From NCBI GenBank assembly GCA_009789175.1, contig CP046866.1, positions 2,480,001 to 2,544,000 on the forward strand: 64,000 bases of DNA, written 5' to 3'. The notes below the pieces were generated by a model that saw only the letters and a program-made list of their open reading frames with translations, ran no database searches and had not been told where the DNA came from. The translations under genes were made by a program, and so were the position numbers. This document shows, one piece after another, positions 53,956-59,915 of the stretch; the first letter of the stretch is position 1, and each line of letters begins with the position of its first letter. The stretch is from Salinibaculum litoreum. GTDB lineage: Archaea; Halobacteriota; Halobacteria; Halobacteriales; Haloarculaceae.

Positions 53956-54072
53956 GCGCTCAGTAGTACGCCACGAACGTCCATAAGTATGACGCTGAGG
54001 CCCAACAGATGGTAAGTGGTGGTTTCAATAGCCGTTAACAGGTGTTTTTATAATGGGTGTGGACAGGTTGCG

Positions 54073-54219
54073 ATGGGCCGGTGGCTGGTGGGTCGCTCAG
54101 GCGAGAACCGACAGGTGCCAGCGGCGGTGCTGTCGCTGGTCACGTCCGTGCACAGAAAGCGAGAAAGGAACGCTCAGGCGCTGCGGGTCTCGCGGGCTTT
54201 CGGTCGGAGGTTCCCGTAG
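54073..54219 (+). CDS. Doubtful 48-residue basic ORF behind a strong TATA box
   Basis: GTTTTTATAAT at 54044-54054 is among the best TATA-like sequences in the window and sits about 24-26 bases before ATG 54073. The frame encodes [14 protein letters not shown] and an Arg-rich remainder, unlike the acidic proteome here, and its 3' part is antisense to L40e. It may be a noncoding or antisense transcript rather than a protein. Confidence 0.2.
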
Positions 54220-54323
54220 CCGCACTTGCGGCACTCGTTCGTTCGCTGCGGGTTGCGGGCGTTACAACGCATACAGACCTGCTTGGTGAAGATGCGGTCC
54301 TCCGCTTTCTCGAATCTGGCCAT
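54174..54323 (-). CDS. rpl40e: Ribosomal protein L40e
   Basis: 49 residues: [40 protein letters not shown] and PKARETRSA. The C4 zinc motif CxxC-x10-CxxC is intact. This is a conserved archaeal large-subunit protein homologous to the ubiquitin-fused eL40. CTTAAAC at about 54351 lies 26 bases before the ATG. It diverges from the enolase-like gene, start codons about 80 bases apart. Confidence 0.95.
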
Positions 54324-54404
54324 GTTCGCCGGTATTCGGTCGGCGCGTTTAAGTGTCGTGGTTTCGGCCGTAGCGTTATCCGTCCCGGCGTCGTCAACGC
54401 GTGT

Positions 54405-55454
54405 ATGTACGACGCTCTCGCGGACCTCCCGCTGACTATCGAGGAGTTCACCACCGAGCGCCGGGAACGGGACACCTCCAGTGGCTTTGCGCGTGCGACG
54501 ACGGTCCTCACCCTGCGTGGCGACGACGCCGTCGGCCGCGGCGAGGACGTGACCTACACCGCCGAGGAACACGACCCCGAGTGCTGGGAAACACTTGAGC
54601 TCTCCCTTGCCGGCGAGTACACGCTCGATTCCTTCTCGGAGTTCGTCGGTGGTCTCGACCTCTTTCCCGACCCGCCCGAGCGCGAGGTGTTCCGCAACTA
54701 CCGCCGCTGGGGGGTCGAGAGCGCCGCCCTCGATCTGGCACTCTCACAGGCCGAGACCACCCTCGCCGATGCGCTCGGCCGCAACGTCGACCCCGTGCGC
54801 TTCGTCGTCAGCACGCGACTTAGTGACATGGAGAGTGAGCAGTCACCGACGGCAGACCGGGTCCACCACTGGCTGGATGTCGACCCGGAGCTACAGTTCA
54901 AACTCGACCCCACGCCCGACTGGCCCGAGCCTATCATCGACGACCTCGCCGCCACCGGGACGGTGGTAACCCTCGACTTTAAGGGGCACTATGAGGGGAC
55001 CGAAGTCGAGACCCCGCCGGACCCCGCACTCTACGGGCGCCTGCTGGAAACGATGCCCGAAGCCATCATCGAGGACCCCGCGCTGACCGAGGAGACCCGC
55101 CCGCTGTTCGAGGGCCACGAGGACCGCGTGTCCTGGGACGCCCCAATCCACGGTATCGGCGACATCGAAGCCCTGCCCTTCGAGCCGGACTGGCTCAACA
55201 TCAAACCCTCCCGCTTCGGGAGCGTGGAGTCGCTGCTGGCGACGATGGAGTACTGCGAGGAGCGCGGAATCGAGACCTACGGCGGCGGCCAGTTCGAACT
55301 CGACGTGGGACGACGCCACATCCAACTGCTCGCGGGCATCTTCTCACCCGATGCACCGAACGACGTGGCCCCGAGCGGCTACAACGCCCCCGAGCCACAG
55401 TCCGGGCTACCGTCGAGTCCACTGGACCCGCCGACAGTCGACCGAGGATTCTAG
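54405..55454 (+). CDS. Enolase-superfamily-like protein (MR/MLE type)
   Basis: 349 residues. The C-terminal barrel shows [32 protein letters not shown] (KxxH), [13 protein letters not shown] and [15 protein letters not shown]; the order Asp-Glu/Asp-Lys along strands recalls muconate-lactonising enzyme/OSBS or dipeptide epimerase relatives. The N-terminal part is not a clear capping domain. Function cannot be assigned. GTTATCC at about 54375 gives the leaderless start at ATG 54405. The terminator-like element at 55.6 kb lies after it. Confidence 0.72.
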
Positions 55455-55728: not shown

Positions 55729-56235
55729 TCACTCCTCGTCGGCGAGATACTCGTCCTGAACGGCCACAACCTCGGCCGAATCCGCACACTCCGCGTACCG
55801 CCGCAGTGGCTCCTCGTTCAATTCCAGGAAGGTATGCCCCCACGAGAACGGCTCCAGAATTGTCTCGGCCTGCTGGCGCTCGCCGAGAATCGCAAGCGCA
55901 CCGGCGAAAGCCTCCACCGTGTTGAGTTGAAACGCGGTCCCGTAGTTGACGGGGTTGGCGGCCACGAGGAAGGGCAGTGAGCGATGGACACCGTCGAGGT
56001 CGAAGGCCTCGCGTTCGGCGGTCTCCCAGGAACAGTCCAGCGCGACGAGTTGGTCCCCGACGGAGTCGTGGCGGTCGGCCGGCGAGATCGCACGCTCGGC
56101 GAAGGGGTTGAGAACGATACCCGGGGGCACCTCGCGAGTCGACCGGTGCAGCGTGGCGTGGTCGAACTTCGCCAGCCGCCGGGCCGTACACTTCTCGGGG
56201 TCGTCGTCACCCTCGTAGCGAACGTGCAGGTCCAC
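55729..56235 (-). CDS. tsr3: Tsr3-like rRNA aminocarboxypropyltransferase (DUF367)
   Basis: 168 residues. [68 protein letters not shown] and [20 protein letters not shown] are the DUF367/Tsr3 signatures. It adds an aminocarboxypropyl group from SAM to rRNA (the eukaryotic 18S site; an archaeal 16S counterpart is inferred). No leader sequence of note; divergent from the tailed peroxiredoxin. Confidence 0.92.
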
Positions 56236-56420
56236 ACTCCTCGTTCTCGGCCGGGCGGCAAAAACAACCCGACCGCGAGGCAGGGCGATACTAGTCCCTC
56301 CACCGGCACGGCAGGACCCACTGGTTTCCTGACGACGTGCCGCTGTACCCCACTGCGGAGGGGTATCGGTTGCTGTGTTCCCCCCACACTGTTAAGTGTG
56401 CGTGCGGAAATGTCGTCATA

Positions 56421-58028
56421 ATGATTGACGAAGGGGAGACGGCCCCGGAGTTTTCCCTGCCAGCGGTCGTCGACGGCGAGGTGGGCGAGGTGGCACTCTC
56501 GGACTACCTCGGGGACGACATCGTCATCCTTGCGTTCTATCCGGCGGATTTCAACCCCGCGTGTTCCGGCGAGACGACCGGTCTCGACGAACTCGACCTC
56601 TTTACGATGCAGAAGGATGTCTCCATCGTCGGCATCTCCGCGGACAGCGTCTACAGCCACCGGGCCTTTGCCGACGACTACGACCTGCACATCCCGCTTC
56701 TGTCCGATGTTCACGGCGAAGTGGCGACCGACTACGGCGTCGTCGCCGACGCGGAGGAGGGCTATCTGGTCAACCGCGCCGTCGTGGTCATCGACCCCGG
56801 CGGGGAGGTCCAGTACACCTGGCAGACCGAGGAACTCACACACCTCCCACCGGTCGAGACGGTCCGGGAGGCGGTCGAGGCTGTCGGCGGGTCCAGTACC
56901 GCCGAGGCCCGGTACCGGGTGGGCCACGCCCATTACGTCGAGGGACGGCGGGCCTTTACCAAGGCGATGCAGTCCTTCGAGGATGCGGAGTGGATGATGG
57001 CACAGGGGGATTTCACCCGCGCCCACGAGGAGTTCGAGGAGGCGGCGGACCAGTTCAACACCGCCGTCCGCTTCGGCGAGGACGACAGAGCCATCACGTA
57101 TTTTGAGCGCGCCGAAGAGAAAGCCGAGGCGCTGTGGCAGGCCGCCGAGTGGCTGGCAGACTCCGCCAGTGCCTACGCCAGCGGCGAGGGCGCGAACGGC
57201 GAGGAGATGCGGTCGGATGCCGAGACACCGCTGGAGGAAGCGCGGGACATCCACGAGCCGCCGGACCCCGACGACTTCCCACCCGAGGAGGACCCCGACG
57301 ACCTGGCCGACGAGGAGTCTGTCCTCCCGACAGAAGAGGACGGCCCACCCGCCGCCCTGGAGTCGGACATCGGCCCCAAAACACCGGAAGCCGAAGAACT
57401 CGCCGCGGAGATGGACAGTGGCAGCCCGGTCGACGAACCCCCCGGAGACACACCAGCGGAGGAGACCACAGCCGAGGAGACGAGCGCCAGCGACGACACT
57501 GAGGACGGCGAAGAAGAGATAGACGACGAAGAGTTAGAGGAAATCGCGGCCGAACTCGAAGCACAGACCAAGCAGGCACAGGCCGAACAAGAAGTGGACA
57601 CTGCGTCGACACCGGAGGGCGTCGTCCCGGACGCGACGGCTATCGCCGACGAGAGCGGCGACCCGGACCTCGGAGAGACGACCGAGACCCGCGACGAGTC
57701 CGCGACAGGGAGTCCCGACGCGTCGAGTGGAGAGACTACCGGTCCCGAAGATGCAGTCGGTGCGGGCGAAACCGACGCCGCCGACGCGGTCGATGGCGGG
57801 GAGGAGCCTGCCAGCCCTGGGAGCCACAGCGATGAGGGGGCCAGTGACGAGGAGACTGGTGACCCCGATACCGAGGACGGCGAGGAGGATATCGAACTCG
57901 ACCTCGCGGACCCGACCGAAGGGAAAGACATCGAACCGGACGAGGCCGCGGAGTTCGACGACGAGGACGATGAGACCGGTGACGAAGACCTCGGGAGCGG
58001 GGACCACGGCGTCCCCGATTCACTGTGA
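56421..58028 (+). CDS. Peroxiredoxin-like domain with helical module and long acidic tail
   Basis: 535 residues. Residues 1-153 form a BCP/AhpC-type peroxiredoxin (FYPADFNPACSGETTGLDEL with Cys about 49, then HIPLLSDVHGEVATDYGVVA). In the usual PxxxTxxC motif the Thr is Asn here, and Cys49 is the only Cys in the protein, so at most a 1-Cys enzyme. Residues about 155-265 are TPR-like helices (FEDAEWMMAQGDFTRAHEEF). The last about 265 residues are Asp/Glu/Ser/Pro/Thr-rich low complexity. GTTAAGTG about 26 bases upstream fixes ATG 56421. Typical family length is 150-200. Confidence 0.85.
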   Translation: MIDEGETAPEFSLPAVVDGEVGEVALSDYLGDDIVILAFYPADFNPACSGETTGLDELDLFTMQKDVSIVGISADSVYSHRAFADDYDLHIPLLSDVHGEVATDYGVVADAEEGYLVNRAVVVIDPGGEVQYTWQTEELTHLPPVETVREAVEAVGGSSTAEARYRVGHAHYVEGRRAFTKAMQSFEDAEWMMAQGDFTRAHEEFEEAADQFNTAVRFGEDDRAITYFERAEEKAEALWQAAEWLADSASAYASGEGANGEEMRSDAETPLEEARDIHEPPDPDDFPPEEDPDDLADEESVLPTEEDGPPAALESDIGPKTPEAEELAAEMDSGSPVDEPPGDTPAEETTAEETSASDDTEDGEEEIDDEELEEIAAELEAQTKQAQAEQEVDTASTPEGVVPDATAIADESGDPDLGETTETRDESATGSPDASSGETTGPEDAVGAGETDAADAVDGGEEPASPGSHSDEGASDEETGDPDTEDGEEDIELDLADPTEGKDIEPDEAAEFDDEDDETGDEDLGSGDHGVPDSL

Positions 58029-58030
58029 CC

Positions 58031-58396
58031 ATGAACGAGGACGGGTCAGAGACGGGTCCCGACCGCACGCGAGTCGAGACGGCCCGTACCTACTACCGGG
58101 CACTCGACGAGGACGACTACGACGTGCTCGCAGACCTTCTCGCGGCGGATTTCGTACACGACCGGCCGGACATGCGACTGGAGGGTCGCGAGCGGTTCGT
58201 CCAGTTCATGCGCGAGGAGCGCCCGACGAAAGACACCAGCCACCCCATCGACGCCGTCTACGACCGACGCGACGGCACCGATGTGGTCGTCCGGGGGCGC
58301 TTGCTTTCCCCCGATGGTGACCTGCTCACGACGTTCCTCGATGTGTTTTCCTTCGACGGAGAGAGAATCGAACGCATCGAGACGTTCGCGCGATAA
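58031..58396 (+). CDS. SnoaL/NTF2-like small protein
   Basis: 121 residues. VETARTYYRALDEDDYDVLA, LLAADFVHDRPDMRLEGRER and VFSFDGERIERIETFAR follow the NTF2/SnoaL cone-shaped fold used by polyketide cyclases, ketosteroid-isomerase-like enzymes and many unknowns. GTG 58025 overlaps the upstream stop as GTGA and is an alternative start. Function unknown; coupling to the peroxiredoxin gene by overlap or near-overlap. Confidence 0.8.
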   Translation: MNEDGSETGPDRTRVETARTYYRALDEDDYDVLADLLAADFVHDRPDMRLEGRERFVQFMREERPTKDTSHPIDAVYDRRDGTDVVVRGRLLSPDGDLLTTFLDVFSFDGERIERIETFAR

Positions 58397-58441: not shown

Positions 58442-59824
58442 TTACTCTTTTTCGCCGGCACCGACGGCGCTCTCGCCGACGGGGTCGTGGCCCTCGATGA
58501 CTTCCTGGCCGTCAAGGTATGGACGCAACGCCTCGGGGACGGTGACGGTACCGTCGTCGTTCTGGTAGTATTCGAGGATAGCGACCATCACGCGGGGCAG
58601 GGCCAGCCCGGAGGCGTTCAGCGTGTGGAGATACTCCGCGGACTCGTGGCGCTCGGGGCGGTACCGCAGGCCGGCACGGCGGGCCTGGAAGGACTCGAAG
58701 TTCGACGCCGAGGAGACCTCCAGCCAGCGGCCGCCGCGGTCGGGACCGTGGTCCATGTCGTCACCCGGTGCCCACACCTCGATGTCGAAGGTCTTCGCGG
58801 ACGCGAATGTCAAATCGCCGCCGCAGAGCTTGACGACGCGGTAGGGAAGCTCCAGTCGGCGCAGGACTTCCTCGGCTTCATCGACGAGGGCATCGAGGCG
58901 CTCGTCGCTATGGTCGGGTTCGACGAAGTTCACGAGTTCCACCTTGTTGAACTGGTGGACGCGGACGATACCGCGTGTCTCGGTGCCGTGTTCGCCCGCT
59001 TCCCGCCGGAAGTTTGGCGTGTAGGCCTGGTGTTTGATTGGGAGGTCGTCGGCGAGCAGGATGTCGTCGCGGTACATGTTGGTCACGGGGACTTCGGCGG
59101 TGGGACACAGCCAGAGGTCGTCGTCCTCGTAGTCGTCGTGTTCGCCGCCGCCGACGCGGTAGGCGTCCTCGTTGAACTTCGGGAGCTGACCGGTCCCGCG
59201 CATCGACTCGGAGGTGACGGGGATGGGCGGGAACACCTCGGTGTACTCTTGCTCGCGGTGGATGTCACGCATGAACGCCATCAGTGCGTGTTCGAGCCGT
59301 GCACCGTCGCCTTTCAGGAAATAGAAGCCGCCGCCGGCGACTTTCGCGCCGCGCTCGAAGTCGATAATCTCCATCTCCTCCCCGAGGTCGTAATGGGGGA
59401 CCACGTCGTCGGGGAGGTCACGGCCGTCCTCGAAGCCGACGCGACGGACTTCCTCGTTGTCGGATTCGTCCTCGCCGGGCGGGACATCGGCCTGCGGGAC
59501 GTTCGGGACTTCCAGCAGGCGCTCTGTGAGTTCCTCGTCGAGATCGTCTGCGCGCTGTTCGACCTCCTGAATCTCGGCTTTGAGTTCCTGCGAGCGCTCG
59601 ATAGCGTCCTGTGCTTCCTCGTCTTTTCCGTCCTGTTTGAGCTCGCCAATCTTGCTGGAGACCTCGTTGCGCTGGTGGCGGAGGTCGTCACCGCGTGCCT
59701 TGAGTTCGCGCCACTCCTCGTCGAGTTCGAGAATGGCGTCGAGGTCGACATCCCCGGTCCCCCGGAGTGCGAGGGCGTCGCGGACGGCCTCGGTGTGCTC
59801 GCGGACGAACTGCCTCGATAACAT
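58442..59824 (-). CDS. serS: Seryl-tRNA synthetase
   Basis: 460 residues, class II. N-terminal long coiled coil (LKARGDDLRHQRNEVSSKIG) for tRNA-Ser, motif 2 FRREAGEHGTETRGIVRVHQ and motif 3 ASGLALPRVMVAILEYYQND, with the active-site FNEDAYRVGGG region. Bacterial/standard type rather than the methanogen type. GGTTTTGCC about 26 bases before ATG 59824. Last gene of the minus-strand block here. Confidence 0.95.
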   Translation of the reverse strand: MLSRQFVREHTEAVRDALALRGTGDVDLDAILELDEEWRELKARGDDLRHQRNEVSSKIGELKQDGKDEEAQDAIERSQELKAEIQEVEQRADDLDEELTERLLEVPNVPQADVPPGEDESDNEEVRRVGFEDGRDLPDDVVPHYDLGEEMEIIDFERGAKVAGGGFYFLKGDGARLEHALMAFMRDIHREQEYTEVFPPIPVTSESMRGTGQLPKFNEDAYRVGGGEHDDYEDDDLWLCPTAEVPVTNMYRDDILLADDLPIKHQAYTPNFRREAGEHGTETRGIVRVHQFNKVELVNFVEPDHSDERLDALVDEAEEVLRRLELPYRVVKLCGGDLTFASAKTFDIEVWAPGDDMDHGPDRGGRWLEVSSASNFESFQARRAGLRYRPERHESAEYLHTLNASGLALPRVMVAILEYYQNDDGTVTVPEALRPYLDGQEVIEGHDPVGESAVGAGEKE

Positions 59825-59915
59825 GTGCCCGGATTCTCGATGTGGTGGCAAAACCGTGTCGCTCTCGCCCGGAAGCGGGGCCTACAACTAAGTGAGTCCT
59901 CGCGCAGGTAGAGGT

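Follow-up and report, generated by a model that had tools for sequence, protein, structure and literature searches.

A 535-residue protein of the haloarchaeon Salinibaculum litoreum joins a PrxQ-derived peroxiredoxin (Prx) domain to a helical module and a long acidic tail, and has probably evolved from an antioxidant enzyme into either an unusual peroxidase or an adaptor that responds to redox state. We tentatively favor the adaptor, in which a thiol switch, slow or selective, would govern the assembly of partner proteins, probably including a co-encoded SnoaL-like protein, over a close rival, a working peroxidase of altered chemistry, and over a less likely pure pseudoenzyme. The gene lies in a 64,000-nucleotide stretch of contig CP046866.1 (the window), and its features and conserved neighbors are collected in Table 1.

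Table 1. Positions in the window of the Prx gene, its parts and its conserved neighbors.
Feature	Position	Strand	Evidence or remark
TATA-like element (TGTTAAGT region), probable leaderless promoter	56389..56396	+	about 28 nt 5' of ATG
Whole gene: PrxQ-derived domain, helical module and acidic tail, 535 aa	56421..58028	+	orthologs, synteny
Peroxiredoxin domain, residues 1-157	56421..56891	+	PF00578, E 2e-29; predicted model vs. PrxQ 4g2e
Active-site loop PADFNPAC: Pro41, Asn45 (Thr/Ser position), Cys48	56541..56564	+
Thr53, position of the resolving Cys of CxxxxC in tail-less orthologs	56577..56579	+
Arg119, conserved active-site Arg	56775..56777	+	invariant in all rows with Prx and helical module
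Predicted four-helix module, residues 158-276	56892..57248	+	AlphaFold2, module alone: pLDDT 95, pTM 0.89
Acidic, probably disordered tail, residues 286-535	57276..58025	+	38% D/E
Conserved tail motif EIDDEELEEIAAEL	57517..57558	+	strict pattern in 27/59 tails, 0 in shuffles
Conserved tail motif ELDLADPTE	57894..57920	+	pattern in 36/59 tails, shuffled mean 0.14
Conserved C-terminus GVPDSL	58008..58025	+	9/59 tails, 0 in shuffles
SnoaL/NTF2-like protein, probable operon partner	58025..58396	+	PF12680, E 8e-12
Tsr3-like gene (Ribo_biogen_C), divergent conserved neighbor	55729..56235	-	PF04034, E 1.9e-45
Seryl-tRNA synthetase, convergent conserved neighbor	58442..59851	-	PF00587 and PF02403

Gene structure and domains

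The gene runs as a single uninterrupted frame from an ATG at 56421 to a TGA at 58028. An earlier start at a GTG (56337, 563 aa) was rejected because the orthologs begin at the position of ATG 56421. The TATA-like element, TTAAG, has about the same spacing in Salinibaculum and several other orthologs and suggests that the Prx gene probably has a leaderless transcript. A preliminary description, made from the letters of the window, had listed a long one-piece frame, a good promoter, a very long acidic low-complexity tail, a Thr-to-Asn exchange in PADFNPAC and only one Cys in 535 residues, and all of these held.

The identity of the N-terminal domain as a Prx is certain, by sequence and by fold. 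Residues 5-132 scored 102 bits for AhpC-TSA (PF00578; cut-off 26), and the predicted model of residues 1-290 (mean pLDDT 89, pTM 0.69) aligned in its Prx part with Sulfolobus tokodaii PrxQ (4g2e) over 146 residues (Z 24.1, rmsd 1.5). The closest known systems are PrxQ/Bcp enzymes (S. tokodaii PrxQ, 4g2e/2ywn, and S. solfataricus Bcp4, 3hjp; Z 24 and 23.6), which have the same fold and matching positions for Pro41, Cys48 and Arg119. The 1-Cys Prx AhpE of Mycobacterium tuberculosis (1xxu, 4x0x) is of similar fold (Z about 23) and resembles the S. litoreum protein in the single Cys, but identity is 29% over the aligned part, and Asn45, the helical module and the tail set the latter apart.

The helical module is predicted to consist of four antiparallel helices (residues 158-187, 191-218, 222-253, and 257-276). 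It had been described as TPR-like; the helices are borne out by the model, whereas the likeness to TPR is a sub-threshold resemblance, with scores below the Pfam cut-offs for TPR_2 (20.3 bits vs. 27), TPR_16 (19.3 vs. 32.7) and TPR_14 (19.4 vs. 23.5). Other Pfam matches were scattered and weak (TPR, SNAP and MIT, the last at 0.065 at best), profile searches of solved structures returned no significant match, and no paper on Prx-TPR fusions in archaea turned up in the literature searched. By fold, the module resembled MIT domains, receptor sensor domains and designed bundles, all below the level that is meaningful for helical bundles; the spastin MIT domain (3eab) aligned with Z 10.7 and rmsd 1.3 over 86 residues, and generic helical bundles score equally high. 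The same module (profile E about 1e-30) occurs in three Haloarcula proteins (L171, 1887-2426; L172, 1986-2597; L173, 1992-2528), which have no Prx domain and carry instead a short, Cys-rich N-terminus of CxxC...CxxC type that resembles a Zn ribbon. Weaker relatives of the module were found in lipoproteins.

The tail contains 52 Glu and 43 Asp among its 250 residues (95/250), has a net charge of -91 and is 11% large hydrophobic residues; the folded part has 23% Asp/Glu and 29% hydrophobic residues. Haloarchaeal proteins often carry acidic disordered extensions. Judged from its composition, the S. litoreum tail is probably a disordered region, and its short motifs may serve binding. Although the tails are hard to align and related rows inflate motif counts, the motifs span genera. 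The motif resembling DIDDEELEEIxAEL recurs in different genera, and the tails that bear GVPDSL are those of Salinibaculum and Halovenus-like relatives. A DNA pattern for ELDLADPT-like sequences was found in 14 of 57 family genomes, at most once per genome, and 12 of the 14 matches were placed inside the Prx gene.

Active site

The active-site motif is FYPADFNPACSGETT, in which Asn45 aligns with the Thr of solved PrxQ-type homologs, including that of the S. tokodaii loop FYPAAFTQVC. In an alignment of 14 Prx structures, P-x3-[TS]-x2-C was called invariant, Ser was rare and the Arg was strictly conserved (PMC5719442). The S. litoreum protein keeps the peroxidatic Cys (Cys48), the preceding Pro (Pro41) and the active-site Arg (Arg119) and departs from the pattern at the Thr/Ser position. 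Cys48 is its sole Cys. The resolving Cys that lies five residues past the peroxidatic Cys in atypical 2-Cys PrxQ/Bcp enzymes (CxxxxC) is Thr53 here; the protein differs from PrxQ/Bcp in Asn for Thr/Ser, in the missing resolving Cys and in the added helical module and 250-residue tail. The single Cys agrees with a 1-Cys Prx of the AhpE/Prx6 type, but the Thr of PxxxTxxC does not. The Thr/Ser of this motif is called invariant; a family in which it is replaced, with Cys, Pro and Arg maintained by purifying selection, offers a natural experiment on the role of the residue.

Other Prx-fold proteins also depart from the motif. In stand-alone relatives the Thr position is filled by Ser or His, and those with His mostly retain CxxxxC; the His of small haloarchaeal Prx (FYPFDFHPVC; L124, L126, L130 and others) is, on the alignment, a second departure from PxxxTxxC. 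Two stand-alone Prx-fold proteins encoded elsewhere in the S. litoreum genome (L007 at C1:317435 and L006 at C1:2767322, 1501-1887 each) are without the peroxidatic Cys, have the loop sequences DFVPAPTAD and YPMDGAFPATYIW, respectively, and are possible pseudoenzymes.

Distribution and history

Searching 392 genomes of the order yielded many relatives, and another 80 loci came from scanning named genomes; once near-duplicates were removed, 106 distinct proteins remained. Residue states were read by alignment column in 59 tailed rows, or 60 when L120, whose tail is frameshifted, is included. L120 was rejected as a tail-less Asn member, as its tail runs on in another frame. The closest protein is that of Salinibaculum sp. 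KK48 (79% over residues 1-284). All the long-tailed proteins belong to Haloarculaceae (Haloarcula, Halorientalis, Halovenus, Halosimplex, Halomicrobium, Halorhabdus, Halapricum, and others), and tail-less orthologs that end at about 290 residues occur in Natrinema, Natronosalvus, Haloarchaeobius, Halorubellus, Halostella and Salinarchaeum.

The two groups differ at the active site. Position 45 is Asn in 55 of 59 tailed proteins (56/60 with L120), Ser in two and Gly in two, whereas it is Ser in 22 of 23 tail-less orthologs and Glu in the other. The immediate ancestral residue was Ser and not Thr, which refines the exchange as it was first described. The CxxxxC pair, a likeness to PrxQ/Bcp, is retained by all 23 tail-less orthologs and by 25 of the 59 tailed proteins; Cys53 is gone in the other 34, the S. 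litoreum copy among them. Cys48 is retained in 58 of 59 tailed rows (59/60 with L120), the exception being Halorientalis marina with Ala, and Pro41 and Arg119 in every protein with a Prx domain and helical module. At the DNA level, 52 of the 391 genomes in the class contain a match to a pattern for FYPxDFNPxC, a single one each, and all 52 are Haloarculaceae (assigned via named loci). From this pattern and the residue counts, the Asn exchange is a clade-wide departure and not an error in a single genome. A Cys-less, tail-less paralog with Prx domain and helical module (L054, 3983-4867; L055, 3965-4849) has the loop FYPSDFGPRS, with Gly at position 45; genomes G059 and G172 carry it beside a tailed Asn gene, and G103, of the same genus, has a matching hit.

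All three parts of the protein are under purifying selection. Pairwise dN/dS is lowest in the folded parts, at 0.03-0.27 in the Prx domain and, with the exception of one near-identical pair, 0.02-0.28 in the helical module; the tail has values of 0.23-0.57. In the tree of the Prx domain, the Haloarculaceae rows formed one branch (support 100/100) with the Cys-less paralog inside it. By parsimony on a 282-residue tree, position 45 changed five times, Cys53 four times, and Cys48 and the tail twice each; a topology test did not reject a single clade of tailed proteins (p-AU 0.71). The resolving Cys was lost repeatedly, including in the S. litoreum copy. Whether the Asn exchange and the tail occur together in other species had been proposed as a check, and at the level of clades they do; Ser or Gly replaces Asn in four of the tailed proteins, and the coupling amounts to two independent pairs on the tree. 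Because Asn45 and the tail have about one origin each, their association may be coincidence.

Conserved neighbors

The order tsr3 - Prx - SnoaL - serS is common to several haloarchaeal families, tailed and tail-less, though not all loci keep all three neighbors, and one group (L043, L048, L050, and L051) lies away from it. The shared locus makes tailed and tail-less genes orthologs and shows that one and the same gene either gained or lost the tail. The tail-less proteins of Natrinema, Haloarchaeobius, Halostella and Salinarchaeum share module order, locus and SnoaL-like neighbor with the tailed ones; they differ in having Ser rather than Asn, in retaining CxxxxC and in having no tail. Upstream of tsr3, a 465-residue frame without a Pfam match (54057-55454) is conserved in most Haloarculaceae loci; its product presumably resembles an enolase-superfamily enzyme.

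The GTG start of the SnoaL-like gene overlaps the Prx stop (an ATG follows at 58031), and in 46 of 51 loci this gene begins within 60 nt of the end of the Prx gene, whether or not the family has the tail. By its position, it is a probable operon partner of the Prx gene. It has a solved homolog of ketosteroid-isomerase fold, Hmuk_0747 (4kvh, 4mjd; E 1.7e-37 to 4kvh), a likeness that concerns the neighbor and not the Prx itself; no functional paper on Hmuk_0747 turned up in the literature searched. The pairing is the best lead to function and offers a testable partner whose homolog has been solved. In Halapricum, the apparent Prx-SnoaL fusion at L088 was rejected as proof of partnership because its junction resembles a frameshift.

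Possible function

In the explanation that we tentatively prefer, Asn would have replaced the active-site Ser of a PrxQ-type Prx in the Haloarculaceae ancestor, where a long, acidic and disordered tail would also have been acquired; the S. litoreum lineage would additionally have lost the resolving Cys. Cys48, beside Pro41 and Arg119, would react slowly or selectively with an oxidant and give weak peroxidase activity, and the helical module and the short motifs of the tail would hold partner proteins, probably including the co-encoded SnoaL/NTF2-like protein. Oxidation of Cys48 would then alter the assembly held in this way. Asn45 in tailed vs. Ser in tail-less proteins, the loss of Cys53, tail motifs above shuffled expectation and the SnoaL pairing make this adaptor plausible. 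In Deinococcus radiodurans PrxQ, loss of either Cys abolishes peroxidase activity, and the single mutants retain holdase activity (PMC6590489). If the D. radiodurans enzyme is a guide, its need for both cysteines makes it unlikely that the S. litoreum copy runs the PrxQ cycle. Selection on Cys48 and Arg119, together with the several canonical Prx encoded in the same genome, favors a thiol switch. Against the adaptor, 25 of 59 tailed proteins retain both cysteines, the helical module matches no sequence family or fold specifically enough to point to protein binding, acidic extensions are widespread in haloarchaea and the association of Asn45 with the tail may be coincidental. The fuller proposition, that a redox-sensing adaptor arose by the Ser-to-Asn exchange, loss of the resolving Cys and a motif-bearing tail and forms with the SnoaL/NTF2-like protein a two-gene haloarchaeal module not described before, is doubtful.

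Only slightly less likely is a working peroxidase of altered chemistry: Asn45, in place of Ser/Thr, would hydrogen-bond the substrate, the S. litoreum copy would act as a 1-Cys enzyme, and the tail would mainly aid solubility in salt. Asn is both a hydrogen-bond donor and an acceptor and so may serve catalysis, and the His of stand-alone haloarchaeal relatives, mostly with CxxxxC, implies that the position tolerates other polar residues. Retention of Pro41, Cys48 and Arg119, strong purifying selection on the Prx domain and the match of the model to both PrxQ and 1-Cys AhpE (Z 23-24) are consistent with such an enzyme; the Thr/Ser described as invariant in Prx (PMC5719442), the repeated loss of the resolving Cys (four state changes on the tree) and the tailed member with Ala for Cys48 speak against it. 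We found no peroxidase activity data for the protein or for the Ser-bearing tailed members. The tail-less Ser orthologs at the same locus, the tailed proteins with Ser or Gly and the Ala-for-Cys ortholog are ready comparisons.

A pseudoenzyme, in which the Prx fold is a structural platform only and Cys48 goes unused, is rather improbable. Ala at this position in the H. marina ortholog, the Cys-less paralog of G059 and G172, and the two further Prx-like proteins of S. litoreum (L006, Cys-less, and L007, without the active-site Cys) show relatives of this kind, but Arg119 is present in all tailed rows and Cys48 in all but one of the 59, which goes beyond structural demand. The preliminary suggestion of a scaffold or sensor rather than a peroxidase is sustained in part: Asn45 in 56 of 60 tailed proteins, loss of the resolving Cys, an added charged tail with conserved motifs, Cys-less paralogs and canonical Prx in the same genome agree with it, whereas Pro41, Cys48 and Arg119 are almost always retained and position 45 takes Ser, His, Glu or Gly in relatives. 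Finally, that the tail is an artefact of frameshift or a fused neighboring gene, the latter named beforehand as a possible refutation, can be dismissed; frameshifts were seen in single records (L088, L120), but in about 59 distinct proteins the tail is read in frame with the rest and is followed by the same neighbor, at a syntenic locus to which it was added, with dN/dS below 1 and conserved motifs.
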